Positions 3,863 through 23,634 of a stretch of 26,868 bases of DNA are shown here, one piece after another (the stretch's first letter is position 1; each line of letters begins with the position of its first letter). Below the pieces are notes generated by a model. It was given only the letters and a program-made list of their open reading frames with translations. It searched no databases and was not told where the DNA came from. Position numbers and translations under genes: made by a program. The DNA is from a virus. Where the stretch lies: IMG/VR virus record IMGVR_UViG_3300030380_004403, positions 1 through 26,868 of that record, one strand, 5' to 3'.

Positions 3863-5347
3863 ATGTTACTCGTAGAGTGCAATGTTTTAGAGAAAGTAGA
3901 AGTCATTAATGAAGGCACGGAGGGTAATACCCGACTTCGCCTTCGTGGTAAATTCCAGCAGTGCGATGAGCAGAACAACAATGGCAGAATCTACCCGCGA
4001 GCTATCCTTGAGTCGCAGGTAAAAGCGATTCAAGAGAAGATCGGTGACCGCTCTCTGGTCGGTGCTCTTGATCACCCCTCTAACGATGCTATCCATCTTT
4101 CGCAAGCCTCTCACCTTATCACTGGTTTGAGCATTGCTAAAGATGGATCGGTAATGGGTGAATGCGAGATTCTTTCAACTCCTAACGGAAAGATTGTTGA
4201 GGCTCTCATCAATGACGGTGTGAAGATCGGCATCTCTAGCCGTGGTGTAGGTAGCGTTACGGAGGGTATTAAAGGTAAGATTGTCAACGAGGACTTTAAG
4301 CTAATCACATTTGACCTTGTATCGGATCCCTCCACCAGAGGTGCGTTCCCTGAGCTTACAGAATCCATTCGTGAGAATAGTCAGCGTGCTCAAAAGATTG
4401 TTACTAAGCATAAGCAAGATCGTGTCTTGCTTACCATGCTTGAAAACAAGATTAGCGAAGCTCTTAAGGGTAAACAAAAGAAGCTCGATAAGAATAAGAA
4501 TAACAAGATTGATGCTGAAGACTTTAAAATGCTTAGAGGTGAGGACGACAGCATGGACGAGAAATCTTTCCCTGATTTAAGTGGTGATGGTAAGGTCACC
4601 ATGAAAGATGTTCTCATGGGTCGTGGAGTTATTAAGAAAGGTAAGAAGAAAAAATCTATGGGTGAGAACGAAGAAGACATGACACCCGATCAGAAAAAGA
4701 CATACAAGAGAGGTAAGAATCCTACGGAAGATCCGAAGGACTACTTAAAAGCCAGGGCCGAATACGAAAAGAAAAATCCTGGTAAGTCAGCACGTATGCC
4801 GCGTGAAGATAGCTCAATAGACATTAGAGCCATTGTTTTAGAGGCTTTCAAAGATGTTTGTTGGGGTGACCGTTACGATGAAATGGGAGAGGTGAAAAGA
4901 AGAAACAGGCAAGCGCAGAGAGATCGACACAGAAGAATGTTTGGATCAGTAGCACAGGGTAGACGAGCCGCACAAAGAGCACAAGGAGAACCTCAATCAA
5001 ATGTTCCACCAACTCAAGCTCAACTCAAGCGTAAGCTTAAAGCGAAGCATGGCTCTAATAAAACCTCATTTGCAAAGAATATTACAGCAAAGCAAGCTGG
5101 CGAGCGTCGTGAAGATAGTTCAATTGACATCAGAGCGACTGTCATAGAGGGATTCAAAAAGGCTTGCTGGGGTGACAAATATCACGAAGCGTATCGCCCT
5201 GGTGAGGGAGAGCGAGTTCGCAAGGAAGTTGAAGATCAAGGTAAAGTTGAGCGCCCTGAAGCAAGAAAAGCCAGATTGGCCCGTGAAGAAAAGGCGGCGC
5301 AAGAAAAATACCGGCAGGAGCACGCTGCCCAATTTAAAAAGAACTAA
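3863..5347 (+). CDS. 21: Prohead core protein protease (gp21-like) with EF-hand pair and duplicated C-terminal motif
   Basis: T4 gp21-type serine protease that matures the prohead by cutting scaffold and capsid proteins. Residues 1-170 carry the family signature: NGRIYPRAIL, the catalytic-type His in ALDHPSN (His71), and the catalytic-type Ser in IGISSRGVG (Ser125/126). T4 gp21 is about 212 residues, while this one is 494. The extension holds two 12-residue calcium-loop-like sequences (residues 209-220 and 238-249), then two copies of a 27-residue motif (314-340 and 416-442) in a basic, low-complexity background. Each copy contains VLEA or VIEG, close to the protease's own expected cleavage consensus. 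The extension may be a fused scaffold or delivery segment that is removed during maturation; this is inference. The protease call is firm. It lies nine bases after the previous gene and is followed by three genes not found between 21 and 22 in T4. Confidence 0.9.
   Translation: MLLVECNVLEKVEVINEGTEGNTRLRLRGKFQQCDEQNNNGRIYPRAILESQVKAIQEKIGDRSLVGALDHPSNDAIHLSQASHLITGLSIAKDGSVMGECEILSTPNGKIVEALINDGVKIGISSRGVGSVTEGIKGKIVNEDFKLITFDLVSDPSTRGAFPELTESIRENSQRAQKIVTKHKQDRVLLTMLENKISEALKGKQKKLDKNKNNKIDAEDFKMLRGEDDSMDEKSFPDLSGDGKVTMKDVLMGRGVIKKGKKKKSMGENEEDMTPDQKKTYKRGKNPTEDPKDYLKARAEYEKKNPGKSARMPREDSSIDIRAIVLEAFKDVCWGDRYDEMGEVKRRNRQAQRDRHRRMFGSVAQGRRAAQRAQGEPQSNVPPTQAQLKRKLKAKHGSNKTSFAKNITAKQAGERREDSSIDIRATVIEGFKKACWGDKYHEAYRPGEGERVRKEVEDQGKVERPEARKARLAREEKAAQEKYRQEHAAQFKKN
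4487..4609 (+). other. Pair of EF-hand/dockerin-like calcium loops in gp21 extension
   Basis: The first loop (4487-4522) reads DKNKNNKIDAED, with Asp/Asn at positions 1, 3 and 5, Ile at 8 and an acidic residue at 12. The second (4574-4609) reads DLSGDGKVTMKD, with D-x-S-x-D-G, Val at 8 and Asp at 12. Both fit the 12-residue EF-hand pattern, and the pairing resembles dockerin or EF-hand tandem loops. Actual calcium binding is not shown. Confidence 0.65.
4802..4882 (+). repeat. Copy 1 of duplicated 27-residue motif in gp21 extension
   Basis: Residues 314-340 of the protease: REDSSIDIRA, then IVLEAFK and CWGDRYDE. The second copy lies at 5108-5188. The copies share about two thirds of residues, and DNA identity is partial, so the duplication is not recent. 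Confidence 0.8.
5108..5188 (+). repeat. Copy 2 of duplicated 27-residue motif in gp21 extension
   Basis: Residues 416-442: REDSSIDIRA, then TVIEGFK and CWGDKYHE, matching copy 1 at 4802-4882. The Glu followed by Ala or Gly in each copy is close to the T4 prohead-protease cut site consensus. Confidence 0.8.
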
Positions 5348-9465: not shown

Positions 9466-10329
9466 ATGCCTAGTAAAATTGGAGTACCAGTTGTTAGATC
9501 TTATGGCTCCTCTTATGGAGTTTATGGGGGCGATCAACTCAAAGACTATAAGAGTCCCAAAGATAAAGACTTAAACAACAAGGACGCAAAAGACGTAAAT
9601 GAGTTTAAGACTTTTAATAGGACAATCAAAGATTATGTCCTTGCTAAGTTAGGGCATCCGATCATTGATGTTGAGCTTGATGACTTTCAGATCCAAATCT
9701 GTATTGATGAGGCGATTTCCAAACTAGAATATCACGCTCCTGATTGGATGACGCAATATGCTGTGTTTAAAACAGAGAGCGGCGTTAATGTCTACGATCT
9801 TCCTCAGGAAATTGCAGATAACCTAAACGATGTTTGGTATCGACGAGACTTCTTCAAGTTTGGTGCAAACCCTGGCTCACTTGAGTTTGATTTTGCTATC
9901 ATGTTTTTTACGAATACTGGCTTATTTAACAATTATAATGTTAGCCAGTATCTTCTTATGCAGCAATACCTAAAACAAGTTAAGAATGTTTTAGGTCAAA
10001 TGTCTACATGGCAACTTATCAATAATAAGTTCCTTCAGTTATTTCCTGTCCCTGAAGAGAATGATGAAGATGTCATCCTAGAATTCAGAGCTTTTGATCC
10101 AAATACTTTACACCACGCTTACAAGAGTTGGTTACAGAGGTATACACTTGCATTAGCTAAGGAAGTTTTAGGGGGTATTAGAAGCAAGTATCAGACTCTC
10201 CCAGGTCCTGGAGGAGGCACCATTCTTAACGGTGATATCCTGTCTCAAGAAGCCTCTAGAGAGAAACAAGCATTAGTTGAAGAGCTTATGTCAGAAATCG
10301 AGGCTCCTCCTTTATTTGACATCTTCTAA
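9466..10329 (+). CDS. 13: Neck protein (gp13-like)
   Basis: A 287-residue protein fitting T4 gp13 (about 309 residues), a neck component that closes the filled head and receives the tail. The family pattern is visible: an N-terminal LAKLGHPIIDVELDDFQIQI segment followed by a helical IDEAISKLEYHAPDW. The C-terminal block reads LALAKEVLGGIRSKY, then LPGPGGGTILNGD and a final Glu-rich helix (EKQALVEELMSEIEAP). The order gp13-gp14-gp15 follows T4, and the stop overlaps the next ATG (TAATG). No clear ribosome site precedes the ATG, in line with a very short leader. Confidence 0.85.
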   Translation: MPSKIGVPVVRSYGSSYGVYGGDQLKDYKSPKDKDLNNKDAKDVNEFKTFNRTIKDYVLAKLGHPIIDVELDDFQIQICIDEAISKLEYHAPDWMTQYAVFKTESGVNVYDLPQEIADNLNDVWYRRDFFKFGANPGSLEFDFAIMFFTNTGLFNNYNVSQYLLMQQYLKQVKNVLGQMSTWQLINNKFLQLFPVPEENDEDVILEFRAFDPNTLHHAYKSWLQRYTLALAKEVLGGIRSKYQTLPGPGGGTILNGDILSQEASREKQALVEELMSEIEAPPLFDIF

Positions 10330-18840: not shown

Positions 18841-19192
18841 TTTTACTAGTGTTCATATAAAGAACACTAAGCACCTAGAGTCAGTGGTGTCCTCCAGCAT
18901 TCAATCTAAAAAGACATCATATTATCTGATTACTAATCAGTGGGATAAACCGTGTAACTTTTTTAATGATCGGTTACCCACTGGTGGTACTACGGATTTG
19001 AACGTGATAGATATATTTAAAGTGCCCAATTGTCTAGACTTGATTAAGTCCTGCATCAAGCATCATAAAGAGACTATCTCGACATCATGCCTCTCAAGGT
19101 ATGACCAACTCCCAATGCTTGTGGTAATTCACAAGTCATTCCCTCGCGTTGTAACTTACAACGGGTCGGTAGGCGCGGAACTTGGAATATAG
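18821..19192 (+). CDS. Unknown small protein convergent with sigma factor gene
   Basis: A 123-residue protein starting at ATG 18821, inside the end of the previous gene (20-base overlap). A GTG- or ATG-type start further upstream (18764) would double-code a longer stretch and is less likely. It begins with a Lys-rich stretch, and the middle contains SYYLITNQWDKPCNFFNDRLPTGG and a following Asp/Val/Ile-rich segment, with five cysteines in total. No family is recognised. The last 37 bases overlap the end of the convergent sigma-like gene. Proximity to the sigma gene might hint at a transcription role, but nothing in the sequence shows it. Confidence 0.55.
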   Translation: MSKKKNNFTSVHIKNTKHLESVVSSSIQSKKTSYYLITNQWDKPCNFFNDRLPTGGTTDLNVIDIFKVPNCLDLIKSCIKHHKETISTSCLSRYDQLPMLVVIHKSFPRVVTYNGSVGAELGI

Positions 19193-19521
19193 TTCCCGTC
19201 TTTAAGGCATTTGTAAGCCTCCAACTTCTCTGAATATCTTTTATTCTTAGAATAAAGAAGTCGAAGATTATTCAAGATGACAGTTGTAAAGTAATTGAAG
19301 GCTTGACCAGAATCCCTATTAAAGTTCTTAAGGACTTTAAGTATTAATAGGAAGCACTCTTGTTTAGATTCTTCAAGATCTACCTTGAACTTGAAGGATA
19401 AAATCAAACGATCAATTAAGAGGTCGAACATGGCGAACAACTCCTCTTCCTTGGTCTTGTCACCAGACTTGAAAAGTTGAATTAACTCCTCAAATTTCTT
19501 GTTGTCAATGTAATTCGCCAT
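19156..19521 (-). CDS. 55: Late-transcription sigma factor (gp55-like)
   Basis: A 121-residue minimal sigma factor. The core matches sigma-70 region 2 as found in gp55-like factors: an acidic-hydrophobic helix with EESKQECFLLILKVLKNF, then FNYFTTVILNNLRLLYSK, where the Phe-x-Tyr-Phe-Thr segment contacts DNA near the -10. T4 gp55 is 185 residues, so this is a short version, and no region 4 is present, as in gp55. gp55 gives RNA polymerase specificity for the late promoter core, with clamp gp45 and co-activator gp33. The (C/G)TAAATA boxes in this window are its natural candidate targets. It is divergent from the polymerase gene with only 16 bases between start codons. Confidence 0.75.
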   Translation of the reverse strand: MANYIDNKKFEELIQLFKSGDKTKEEELFAMFDLLIDRLILSFKFKVDLEESKQECFLLILKVLKNFNRDSGQAFNYFTTVILNNLRLLYSKNKRYSEKLEAYKCLKDGNYIPSSAPTDPL

Positions 19522-19537: not shown

Positions 19538-20563
19538 ATGCCACAGCTAAGTTTTCAAGGTGATAATCCTAAGTGTGAAGGATGCCCTGCACTGACCATG
19601 CAGATCCCCAGGCACACAATCTTAGACTACGAATACGCAGATGCCCCTGTAGATATTCTATTCATCTCGGACTCAGCTAAGATATTTGAGGGTCAGTATG
19701 AGGCGTTCCGCCCTCAAGAAGAAGATATCATTACGCGAGAGCTTCTGAGGCTTGAGCACGATTTTTCCTTTGCATTTACCACTGCTGTAAAGTGCCCCAC
19801 CATTACCTCAGACAACCTGTCTACTGGTATCAAGAAGACCTGTAAGGTTCACTTGCACGACACTATTGATCACTTTAAACCTAAGATGGTATTTGCTTGC
19901 GGTAAGGTTGCAACCACTGTTCTGTATGGGAAGGCTAAGGATGATAGTAAAGTTAGAGGCAAGTGTGATACCATGGTTACGGAGGCAGACACGGAGTTCA
20001 AGGTAGTGCCAATTATGCACCCTTTTCAGGTCCTAGCAGAACCTAAGAACGCATATCTCTTCAGAACCGACCTAGAGAATGCTGTAAATAATGAGCTTTT
20101 AGGGAAGGCCACAGAGGCTCGCGTTCCATACACTTTGGCCACCACTTCTGAGGATCTCGATCAGAGCTTTGTCGATACTGATTTGGATGTCGCTGTAGAC
20201 ATTGAGACCACAGGTCTTAACTTCCTGCAAGATACGATTCATACCGTTTCTATGACTCTGGTCGATCGCGATACGGGGGAGCTTGGAAAGACTCTGGTCC
20301 TGCCTATTGATCACAAGGATGCAAAACTCAGCTACAGGATTAAGGGCCAGTTCATGACGTTTGTTTGCGATGTGATGCGTAATAGGAAGAACCGAAAGGT
20401 CTTGCAGAATGCAGGCTTCGACCTTAAGTTTTTGAAGCGGTATGGTGTGGATGAGGTGTATAATATCTTCGACACAAAACTTCTACAGCACCTTTATAAA
20501 GAGGATGTGCCTAAGTCTCTGGCTGATCTTGTTTACTACTATTTTCCCGACGAGAAGTTCTAA
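19538..20563 (+). CDS. Family A DNA polymerase part 1: UDG-like domain plus 3'-5' exonuclease N-half
   Basis: A 341-residue protein. Residues 1-185 look like a family 4 uracil-DNA glycosylase: Cys13-x2-Cys16, then Cys86-x15-Cys102, the four-cysteine pattern that holds a 4Fe-4S cluster, with a KPKMVFACGKVA strand and PIMHPFQ resembling the later UDG motif. Residues 210-341 begin a DnaQ-like 3'-5' exonuclease: DIETTGL (Asp221, Glu223) is ExoI and NAGFDLKFL (Asp295) is ExoII. ExoIII lies in the next ORF, so the domain is cut in two. A UDG-like head on a phage PolA is known, for example in SPO1. The stop overlaps the next ATG (TAATG), which would permit coupled translation. Whether the UDG-like domain is active cannot be judged. 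Confidence 0.88.
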   Translation: MPQLSFQGDNPKCEGCPALTMQIPRHTILDYEYADAPVDILFISDSAKIFEGQYEAFRPQEEDIITRELLRLEHDFSFAFTTAVKCPTITSDNLSTGIKKTCKVHLHDTIDHFKPKMVFACGKVATTVLYGKAKDDSKVRGKCDTMVTEADTEFKVVPIMHPFQVLAEPKNAYLFRTDLENAVNNELLGKATEARVPYTLATTSEDLDQSFVDTDLDVAVDIETTGLNFLQDTIHTVSMTLVDRDTGELGKTLVLPIDHKDAKLSYRIKGQFMTFVCDVMRNRKNRKVLQNAGFDLKFLKRYGVDEVYNIFDTKLLQHLYKEDVPKSLADLVYYYFPDEKF

Positions 20564-21087
20564 TGCTTACAGTTGAAGGTAAGAAATTTGATTGGAAGAA
20601 CATTCCACTCATTCAATGTGCTGATGGTAACGCCAAGGATACCTACGCTACTGCCAAGGTCTACGCGAAGCTTCTTGATGAAGTACGTCAGAAGAAACTA
20701 GAGAAGCTGTATGAGAAACTGATTGCACCTCTCACTGTTGCATTCCTCGACATGGAGTATGAAGGTCTGCTGATCGACGAGGATAAGATGAACGAATTGG
20801 ACGCTCAGTTGCAAGAGAAGATCAAGCTTGCAGACGCCGCCCTTCGCGATGCTGCTGGGTTAGAAAAAGGGACTAACCTTAACTCAACCAGCCAGCTTGT
20901 AAAGGTTATCTACTCTTTTGTGAAAGATGAGAAAGGTGAGTGGATTCAGGTTGAAGACTTTGGTCTCGGACTGTATCCTTTCGAGTTCACCAAAAAGGGT
21001 GCTCCGTCTACGAATGAGGAGACCTTGTCCAAGGTGAAGTCTATGGTCGAGGAAGAGTTCGCAGCAAGAGGTCTTAAGAGTGAATAA
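20563..21087 (+). CDS. Family A DNA polymerase part 2: end of exonuclease domain and thumb
   Basis: A 174-residue continuation of the polymerase. It begins with residues that follow the exonuclease N-half without a gap, including the ExoIII-type Asp in NAKDTYATAKVYAKLL. It continues with LYEKLIAPLTVAFLDMEYEGLLIDEDKM, the usual opening of the PolA polymerase region, and NLNSTSQLVKVIY, the NxxSxxQL motif before the palm. It ends at TAA 21085-21087, seven bases into the next ORF. The frame is shifted relative to part 1 and then back again in part 3. Either three coupled genes encode one enzyme or assembly errors have broken one gene; TAATG at the first junction, identical to four junctions in this genome, favours real gene ends there. 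Confidence 0.85.
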   Translation: MLTVEGKKFDWKNIPLIQCADGNAKDTYATAKVYAKLLDEVRQKKLEKLYEKLIAPLTVAFLDMEYEGLLIDEDKMNELDAQLQEKIKLADAALRDAAGLEKGTNLNSTSQLVKVIYSFVKDEKGEWIQVEDFGLGLYPFEFTKKGAPSTNEETLSKVKSMVEEEFAARGLKSE

Positions 21088-22144
21088 TGAAGAAGTAAAC
21101 ATTGCCAAGGCAGTTCTAAACAACATGACGGACGATCAGTTGAAGGCTGCTAAGAGGTTCTTCGATCGATTCTCTGAATACAAGAAGCTGACCAAGTTGC
21201 ACTCTGTATATATTGAAGGTGCTCGCACTGCTCTGAAGAATACTGGTAACAGTCGGATGTATGTTAAGTATAACATTGATGGCACTGTGACCGGACGCAT
21301 TTCCAACTCGGGTGCAAACGTTGGCAGGAAGAAGGATGATAAGATTGGTGTATCATTCCACACGCTGCCGAGAGAGTCTCTTGATGTGAACATTCGTGAT
21401 TACGTGGTGGCACCCAAGGGTCACGATTTCATCACTATCGACATGAAGGCGATGGAACTACGAGTTCTCGCTCACGTCGCCAATGAGCAAAACATGATTC
21501 AGGCTTTTAGGTCTGGCGTAGATCTTCACAGTTATTCTGCGGGTCTAACCTTCAACAAGGATCCTGAGGATGTGAGCAAGCTTGAACGACAGATCGCAAA
21601 GGAAGTTAGCTTCTTGACGGTGTATGGAGGCACTGCCTATACGCTTGCATCAAAGCGTAATATTCCTGAGGAACGAGCGGAGGAGATCATCAGCAGTTGG
21701 ATGCGAGCATTCCCTGGTGTAGGTAAGTATATGCAAACCATTGATGACTACATCAAACAGTTTGGGTACGCCAAGACTATCTTTGGTCGTTACCGTCATT
21801 TGCCTAACATTCGATCACCTTTTAAGGGTGTTCGTCGAGAGGCTTTTCGTCAGGGGCTTAATTTCACAATTCAATCTGCGGCTAGCGACATTCTTCTGTG
21901 TGGTATGCTGGGTGTGATTGAAAAGCTCAGAAACCTAAAGGCTAAGGTTGTAGCCACGGTTCACGACTCCATCGAATTGATTGCACCTAAGAATGAAACT
22001 AGGCGCGTGGTAGAGATAGTTAAGGATGAGCTTGAGAACTACTACTACCTGAGAGAGAACTTCGGTATCAACCTGCAAGTCCCTCTCGGTGTAGACATTG
22101 AGGTTGGCTCAAGCTTTGGCAATGGTGTTGAGTATGAACTCTAA
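21080..22144 (+). CDS. Family A DNA polymerase part 3: catalytic palm and fingers
   Basis: A 354-residue catalytic part of a PolA-type polymerase. TGRISNSGANVG is the template-binding TGR motif. Motif A is ITIDMKAMELRVLAH (Asp121, steric-gate-type Glu126). The O-helix motif B is RQIAKEVSFLTVYGG (Arg170, Lys174, Phe178, Tyr182). Motif C is TVHDSIEL (His295-Asp296), where the second acidic residue of E. coli Pol I is replaced by Ser. All main catalytic residues are kept. The start is GTG 21080, overlapping part 2 by eight bases; a TAATG in the third frame at the junction leads only to a three-codon ORF. The stop overlaps by four bases with the convergent glycoside-hydrolase-like gene. Confidence 0.92.
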   Translation: MNNEEVNIAKAVLNNMTDDQLKAAKRFFDRFSEYKKLTKLHSVYIEGARTALKNTGNSRMYVKYNIDGTVTGRISNSGANVGRKKDDKIGVSFHTLPRESLDVNIRDYVVAPKGHDFITIDMKAMELRVLAHVANEQNMIQAFRSGVDLHSYSAGLTFNKDPEDVSKLERQIAKEVSFLTVYGGTAYTLASKRNIPEERAEEIISSWMRAFPGVGKYMQTIDDYIKQFGYAKTIFGRYRHLPNIRSPFKGVRREAFRQGLNFTIQSAASDILLCGMLGVIEKLRNLKAKVVATVHDSIELIAPKNETRRVVEIVKDELENYYYLRENFGINLQVPLGVDIEVGSSFGNGVEYEL

Positions 22145-23634
22145 CGACCTAGATAATCCATTACACCCATCCATTTAGGTGCTGTATATCTAGGTTGTGT
22201 TTGCCACTCAAGCAAACCAAACGATCCGTATCTACCGTGATCACCTGTGGCTCGGTATAACATGAATAGATCTCCACCTTCCCCAAACCAGCGATTCAAG
22301 TCATTGTAATATAACTGACGCATTCCTGGGTCTCTGTTAGCCTGTACAAATAAGTTTGTAAGAGCTTGATTGTTTTGTGCAGATCCCACTCCTACTAGGT
22401 GCTGACCACCTTCGTAAGCTAATAGCTGTAAGCCTCTCTGTGTGGTATCAATTCTATTCTGCCTAGTATACACATTGTGATTGTCATCAAGGTCTATCTG
22501 ACAGAGAGATAGAATGTGAGAAACAGAGAACGTAGAGGCTTGTGGGTAGTTACTAGGATTTCCTAACGACCCACCAAAGTAAGGAGCAACTGCAAAAGCA
22601 TCTGCATTCTCATAGGCATTTTGCCAATCCATGATTTGTCTGTTGACCCAAGGGTTAACACTTTGGCCTGCCAATACGCGAACGAGTCTTCTTTGATTTA
22701 ATGGGTTGTAAATGTTTGAGAATAGGTTAAAAACTTCAATTGATCGCTGAGAATAATAACGCCAACCCGCATGCCAAGGTTGAGGGTGTAATCCTAACGC
22801 TGTCCCTTCGTTTTGAGCGTATTGACACTGATCAAAGATGCCATTCCAAACTTCGTTACTGTATTCTAAATAAATTGTAAGTGATGGATCTAAAACTATT
22901 CGACATAGCAGTGCAAGATACTGAACATATAAATCGTTTGCCATGTGAGGCACACAGATCCACATGTGCTTTTTTGTTTTGTTGCACAGGTCAATCATGT
23001 AAAGAGGGTGAACTCCCTCCGAAGTAGCCTGAGTATAATTAAAAAAGTTAGTGGCTTCATACCAATGAATCACAGGGTTATCGTTTGTCCGACCCCAGTT
23101 CATAAATCTGATGGTATCGAAAGGCTCTAAGCTCTTCATAAAATCAGGGTGGAATATTCTGTTGGAGTTATCATACCCAGGAAGATATACTCGAATGTTT
23201 TCAATGGGCTGCACGATGTCTGTAATCCTAAGAGTAAAATACCCATCGCTCGGAACCTGTAAATTAATTTTAATGTGACCTGGATTCTGCTCTACAATCG
23301 TAACAGATCCGTTACCACCTGCCAAAGGCTTCAGAGTTCCGATACCATCGTAACGAATGTTATAGATACCATCGGGGTAATTAGGAGACCCGTCAGAAAA
23401 GATGATAGATTCAATCCATTGATTAGGCTCAAGACTTTGAGGCCACCCAAGATCGTCTGTGTTGATTGCAGGCCCACCACCCCATGAAAAAGGGCTAGCT
23501 TGATGGCTCACCCACTCGCGAGAACTTTTAAAGGCGTTCACAAACGGGGTTTGTTGATGCCAGTCAGTGACTGTTTCTAAATTTACACCCACGGGTCCTT
23601 GTGGGGCAAAGGCGAGTAGTGCTGCAAGTAACAT
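22141..23634 (-). CDS. Exported glycoside-hydrolase-like TIM-barrel protein
   Basis: A 497-residue protein with a short hydrophobic N-terminus (LLAALLAFA) that looks like a signal sequence, though it lacks a positive charge at the front. Residues about 15-165 form a beta-rich N-terminal domain (FVNAFKSSREW, YDGIGTL). Residues about 165-497 look like a clan GH-A type barrel, with Asn260-Glu261 in IYLEYSNEVWNG as acid/base-type residues and Glu408 in LLAYEGGQHL as nucleophile-type residue. Similar proteins are encoded by marine bacteria and are often annotated as cellulose-binding. Substrate is unknown, and some relatives may lack activity. It is the last gene of a minus-strand group, 18 bases after the small basic protein gene. 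Probably acquired from a bacterium; a role at the host envelope or exopolysaccharide is inference. TATATA lies just before the ATG and no good ribosome site is seen. Confidence 0.8.
   Translation of the reverse strand: MLLAALLAFAPQGPVGVNLETVTDWHQQTPFVNAFKSSREWVSHQASPFSWGGGPAINTDDLGWPQSLEPNQWIESIIFSDGSPNYPDGIYNIRYDGIGTLKPLAGGNGSVTIVEQNPGHIKINLQVPSDGYFTLRITDIVQPIENIRVYLPGYDNSNRIFHPDFMKSLEPFDTIRFMNWGRTNDNPVIHWYEATNFFNYTQATSEGVHPLYMIDLCNKTKKHMWICVPHMANDLYVQYLALLCRIVLDPSLTIYLEYSNEVWNGIFDQCQYAQNEGTALGLHPQPWHAGWRYYSQRSIEVFNLFSNIYNPLNQRRLVRVLAGQSVNPWVNRQIMDWQNAYENADAFAVAPYFGGSLGNPSNYPQASTFSVSHILSLCQIDLDDNHNVYTRQNRIDTTQRGLQLLAYEGGQHLVGVGSAQNNQALTNLFVQANRDPGMRQLYYNDLNRWFGEGGDLFMLYRATGDHGRYGSFGLLEWQTQPRYTAPKWMGVMDYLGR

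Follow-up and report, generated by a model that had tools for sequence, protein, structure and literature searches.

Textbooks present Pol I as the model of a polymerase made of one chain. In the viral DNA analysed here (IMG/VR record IMGVR_UViG_3300030380_004403, positions 1 to 26,868; this whole stretch of 26,868 nucleotides is called the window), the parts of one family A polymerase (PolA) with a UDG-like domain are spread over three consecutive open reading frames. The question is whether these are three genuine genes and, if so, whether their products work as one enzyme. As judged from the sequence, it is very likely that the three genes are genuine and co-translated and that their products assemble non-covalently into one UDG-PolA replicase.

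Three reading frames and their domain content

All features of the locus described here lie on the + strand unless indicated otherwise. ORF1 (19538..20563, 341 aa) contains a UDG4-like domain at residues ~13-187 (19574..20092), recognised by its cysteine spacing, by Foldseek and by alignment, and the N-terminal portion of the 3'-5' exonuclease domain of PolA (20186..20563), which runs to the stop codon and ends between exo II and exo III. ORF2 (20563..21087, 174 aa) carries exonuclease motif III followed by the thumb's first half; the second half, the palm and the fingers are in ORF3 (21080..22144, 354 aa), whose motifs A, B and C are intact. The summed length of the three pieces is 869 aa, and a sequence check placed them in frames 2, 1 and 2. 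At junction 1 (20561..20565), the stop codon of ORF1 and the ATG of ORF2 share one base in TAATG. At junction 2 (21080..21087), ORF2 and ORF3 overlap by eight bases, ORF3 starting with GTG; a Shine-Dalgarno-like AGAGG (21067..21071), which is kept in relatives, is located 8 bases upstream of this GTG. The coordinates, lengths, frames and overlaps given in the first-pass annotation were found to be as it described, and its remark that TAATG is reused in the window also held, since the gene pairs at 10329, 10874 and 11518 are joined in the same way.

On the - strand, a gene for a 497-aa protein with no Pfam match (22141-23634) is convergent with ORF3 and overlaps its end by four bases. Upstream of the polymerase genes, a small protein with a very weak match to sigma-70 region 2 is encoded on the - strand (19156-19521), and a similar gene occupies the same place in one relative (L244).

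Domain searches detected UDG (E 1e-5) and the PolA exonuclease (E 5e-12, profile positions 22-128 of 173) in ORF1 and DNA_pol_A (PF00476, E 5e-72) in ORF3. ORF1, ORF2 and ORF3 matched consecutive stretches of one PHROG polymerase family (549-785, 796-918 and 929-1237, respectively). A profile search against solved structures placed them on the Klenow chain at 6-127, 159-294 and 303-587, which we take to be residues 329-450, 482-617 and 626-910 of E. coli Pol I (chain position +323). The Pfam domains, the PHROG stretches and the Klenow alignment thus agree with the earlier proposal of one family A polymerase with a UDG-like domain across three ORFs. The homology of the ORF3-bearing polymerase to PolA is not in doubt.

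The stretch of ORF2 aligned to Klenow 159-294 spans the exo III aspartate and the thumb, in agreement with the claim that the exonuclease domain is interrupted and that ExoIII belongs to ORF2. According to this alignment, break 1 separates exo II from exo III, and break 2 falls inside the thumb near its tip. The second break had been described as lying before the palm; it is indeed upstream of the palm, but its actual position is within the thumb, at Klenow ~617/626. Similarly, the statement that no segment is missing or duplicated was true of the conserved positions, but ~15-27 extra residues are present on each side of the second break.

The AF2 model of ORF1 had a pLDDT of 90.2 and a pTM of 0.80, and Foldseek matched it to UDG4 structures (1ui0 and 4zbx, probability 1.0) and to PolA exonuclease domains. 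For ORF2, the model was of moderate confidence for a single chain (pLDDT 86.7, pTM 0.53), and the Foldseek matches to the Bst, Taq and G20c Pol I were weak (best probability 0.95-1.00, TM ~0.4-0.46, E >0.04). The lower model confidence and the weak match are as might be expected of a bridge piece.

Conservation of the breaks and genes inserted at them

The order of the frames and the tiny overlaps would also be seen if two compensating single-base indels had been introduced into one normal gene by sequencing or assembly, as the first-pass annotation had allowed. In the first viral search, in which the best 80 loci were taken, the pieces were separate in every relative wherever they were visible. 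With the later alignment-based scans, which also took the best 80 loci each, at least 202 distinct relatives were found, of which 145 had three pieces, 33 had two (piece 1 separate, pieces 2 and 3 joined) and 24 had a part off the contig or undetected. All parts were visible in 178 distinct viral sequences; cut 1 was present in all of them and cut 2 in 145. Hence the thumb, palm and fingers of this PolA are not carried by a single polypeptide in 145 of the 178 distinct sequences, the thumb being divided between ORF2 and ORF3. Neither a one-piece member nor one with pieces 1 and 2 joined was detected among the 202 distinct relatives (best 80 loci per scan). The five viral scans that followed the first thus reached a two-piece subclade but no one-piece member; a fully fused member may exist beyond the best 80 loci per scan.

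Relatives with the same breaks came from many samples, at identities down to ~30-50%, and the search for such relatives, which had been proposed as a check, thus recovered both breaks in at least 145 distinct sequences. The one-base overlap at junction 1 was found in 85 of about 120 distinct relatives, and the commonest state of junction 2 was an overlap of eight bases with GTG, TTG or ATG. ORF2 starts with a nearly invariant Met-Leu. Among the Shine-Dalgarno signals at the starts of the pieces, those for ORF3 were strong, an SD-like motif being present at 96 of 127 ORF3 starts versus a background of 11%.

In approximately a quarter of the first ~120 distinct relatives, 173-2403 bases with complete genes inside separate pieces 1 and 2. 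Among them are genes for an HNH endonuclease (HNH_3, in L037) and a 2OG-oxygenase (L057) and an ORF of 91 aa; several others lie on the opposite strand. Where junction 2 contains an insert, the spacing is ~530-580 nt; L057 has a second ORF there, L222 a gene resembling those of nucleotide kinases, and L302, as judged by eye, one similar to that of L222. The ends of the polymerase pieces are the same with or without an inserted gene. Therefore, both sequencing error and frameshifting were excluded as sources of this arrangement, and the comparison with relatives indicates that the three-gene arrangement is real. The suggestion of two compensating errors was refuted by the relatives with the same breaks and by those with whole genes at the junctions, and the probability left to it is practically nil. 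The earlier claim of real gene ends with coupled translation is supported by the at least 145 distinct sequences, the conserved starts, the Shine-Dalgarno sites and the inserted genes.

Pieces 1 and 2 have a glutamine synthetase gene (PF00120, PF03951) between them in members of the two-piece subclade (L330:3390-4370) as well as in L326 (L326:2228-3190); a metabolic gene is unexpected at a locus for phage replication.

Production of a full-length protein by programmed ribosomal frameshifting at both overlaps would in principle be permitted by the overlapping ends in the window and in many relatives. It would be impossible, however, across the 173-2403 nt between pieces 1 and 2, where some inserted genes are on the opposite strand, or across the ~530-580 nt that part piece 2 from piece 3. 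The starts of both ORF2 and ORF3 are conserved and have SD-like sites of their own, and a slippery heptamer was not evident by eye at either junction. This explanation is accordingly considered very improbable. Splicing of the pieces, either as RNA through a split intron or as protein through a split intein, has a similarly slight chance of being correct: group I introns are frequent in the PolA genes of other phages (PMC11878797), but with overlaps of just 1 and 8 bases the window has no space for additional sequence, and no Rfam intron was matched in it or at 12 related loci that contain inserts.

Catalytic residues and the proposed assembly

Polymerase motifs A (D, E), B (R...K...F/Y...YG) and C (HD) are present in ORF3, and the corresponding residues D113, E118, R160, K164, F168, Y172, H287 and D288 were invariant in 14 diverse relatives. 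In ORF1, exonuclease motif I is represented by D221 and E223 and motif II by D295, and the motif III aspartate is D26 of ORF2, equivalent to Klenow D501. These four residues, which correspond to the Klenow ligands D355, E357, D424 and D501, were invariant among 79-80 sequences. The dN/dS values were 0.02-0.18 in all three ORFs where they could be estimated; although these are rough values with dS near saturation, they indicate that all three ORFs are under purifying selection.

ORF2 G22 (20626-20628), adjoining the exonuclease cut, replaces Klenow Y497 and is an invariant glycine throughout the clade, whereas the fused PolA of phage KimJongPhill has a tyrosine four residues before the exo III aspartate. 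The glycine may alter proofreading. In the UDG-like domain, C13, C16, C86 and C102 of ORF1 are invariant with the spacing of the family-4 UDG [4Fe-4S] site, and the HP of UDG motif B is kept as the near-invariant H161-P162. Because catalytic motif A (GEAPG-type) was not recognisable, the aligned stretch reading LFxSDS, glycosylase activity of this domain appears doubtful.

In the proposed assembly, the UDG-like domain would come with piece 1, together with exonuclease motifs I and II, which make up most of that active site. Piece 2 would act as a bridge: its aspartate would be the last one needed for the exonuclease, and it would form one half of the thumb. The remaining half would be provided by piece 3, along with the entire active site of the polymerase. 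Translation would be coupled at TAATG and at the eight-base overlap, and the products would join without a covalent link; both their physical assembly and their activity are inferred.

It might be supposed instead that the pieces are not reassembled at all, ORF3 (perhaps with ORF2) being a stand-alone polymerase without proofreading and ORF1 alone being a UDG-like protein or nuclease. Unrelated genes can part the pieces, one subclade has a fused ORF2-3 but a separate ORF1, and the exonuclease tyrosine has been replaced by glycine, all of which would fit such an arrangement. The exonuclease aspartates, however, are divided between ORF1 and ORF2 and are nevertheless invariant in both, which makes sense only if pieces 1 and 2 meet. 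The division of the thumb between ORF2 and ORF3 also speaks against independent products, as do the order and adjacency of the pieces, which are kept, and the overlaps of their ends, which are kept in most relatives. Independent action of the products is therefore regarded as unlikely. The fused ORF2-3 was counted against the assembly design, and it follows from this fusion that cut 2 is not essential to it.

Phage clade, origin of the breaks and known systems

The window and 11 large relatives of 77-130 kb have the gp23 major capsid protein (PF07068), and the window also encodes a gp21 protease (Peptidase_S77; 3863-5347, + strand); both are marks of T4-like phages, and the group to which the window belongs is uncultivated. 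The middle of this T4 gp21-like prohead protease contains an EF-hand/dockerin-like stretch, the match being weak and below curated cut-offs. Each of the 11 relatives encodes exactly one PolA, and neither PolB (PF00136) nor Pol III alpha was found in them. The 112 kb relative is probably nearly complete because its ends overlap by 147 bases at 99% identity. A 130.6 kb contig of the clade (L239, QCKN01000003.1) is recorded as part of a single-cell genome of Prochlorococcus; this may point to a true host or to a phage particle sorted along with the cell. A psbA search gave no support for Prochlorococcus as the host.

In a tree of polymerase domains, the split phages formed one clade apart from the sampled cultured phages with fused polymerases. 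The two-piece subclade had 100/100 support and contains one three-piece member, L326, and a basal position of this subclade was allowed (p-AU 0.44). The tree thus allows either that the two-piece subclade is basal, with the thumb cut later and twice, or that pieces 2 and 3 were re-fused. We infer that the split arose by gene fission, cut 1 being universal in the clade and cut 2 absent in one subclade. Invasion by a homing-endonuclease gene is a plausible cause of the fission because one relative (L037) keeps an HNH_3 gene at junction 1; the window has no such gene at its breaks, and other relatives have unrelated genes there.

The same domain order is found in the fused UDG-exonuclease-polymerase proteins of the phages LysYB1 (Lysinibacillus), STP12 and Lebethron (Pseudomonas) and Serbin (Serratia), each of which is one polypeptide of 834-891 aa, in contrast to the three of the window, whose total length is similar. 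Among the fused UDG-PolA proteins examined from cultured phages, most have 834-894 aa, and that of RcKickapoo has 1247. In the Vibrio phages D69/D148/D181, of which D69 (L252, 737-4616) was examined, PolA is encoded by several ORFs with a break between exo II and exo III, like junction 1; unlike in the window, a 181-aa gene is present at this break, and the palm/fingers region is interrupted between motifs B and C by an intron-like insertion. The cyanophage S-TIM5 was rejected as a split relative, its polymerase being annotated as one CDS.

Rhodothermus phage RM378, which the first-pass annotation had offered as a parallel, is a distant T4 relative in which the polymerase and exonuclease are indeed encoded by separate genes. 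It is not the same system: its enzyme is of family B, with the exonuclease (PF03104) and the polymerase (PF00136) encoded at distant places of the genome, and is cut between domains, whereas the window has a PolA that is cut inside folds; no similarity of the RM378 polymerase to the window ORFs was detectable.

A split polymerase is also known from the Aeromonas T4-like phages 25 and 44RR, whose PolB is divided into 43A and 43B with a homing endonuclease gene near the break (Petrov 2010, as summarised in PMC2988022). The 43A and 43B proteins of phage 25 co-purify and are polymerase-active, and the split NrdA of Aeh1 is also active (PMC2988022). As in the window, a T4-like replicative polymerase is divided between separate genes, but 43A/43B belong to family B and form two pieces in a few phages, whereas the clade studied here is large and has a family A polymerase in three pieces. 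43A/43B and the split NrdA are experimental precedents for the proposed assembly of the window products. In the marine OM43 phages MEP401 and MEP402, the polymerase is encoded by two genes with a small ORF between them, and most metagenomic genomes related to theirs also have it split; an intron was suspected by the authors (PMC10580990). The separation into genes resembles that in the window, but there are two genes, and these phages are Zobellviridae-related and not T4-like. A three-piece PolA was not found described in the literature searched, in which subscription papers are mostly not covered. Divided phage replication genes are a recognised kind, and the three-way cut of PolA goes beyond the two-piece splits in that literature.

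On balance, we lean slightly towards the broader view that the whole T4-like clade replicates with an obligately three-chain PolA in which the proofreading site and the thumb are each made of two polypeptides. In such an enzyme, proofreading and the function of the thumb could be switched or exchanged through subunit binding, and it would have arisen by stepwise fission, perhaps with re-fusion, at fixed points. If this is true, an exonuclease fold and a thumb would be functional when assembled from separate chains, the break points would be ready-made for split-polymerase work, and the clade would provide a test case for how phage genes become and stay divided.
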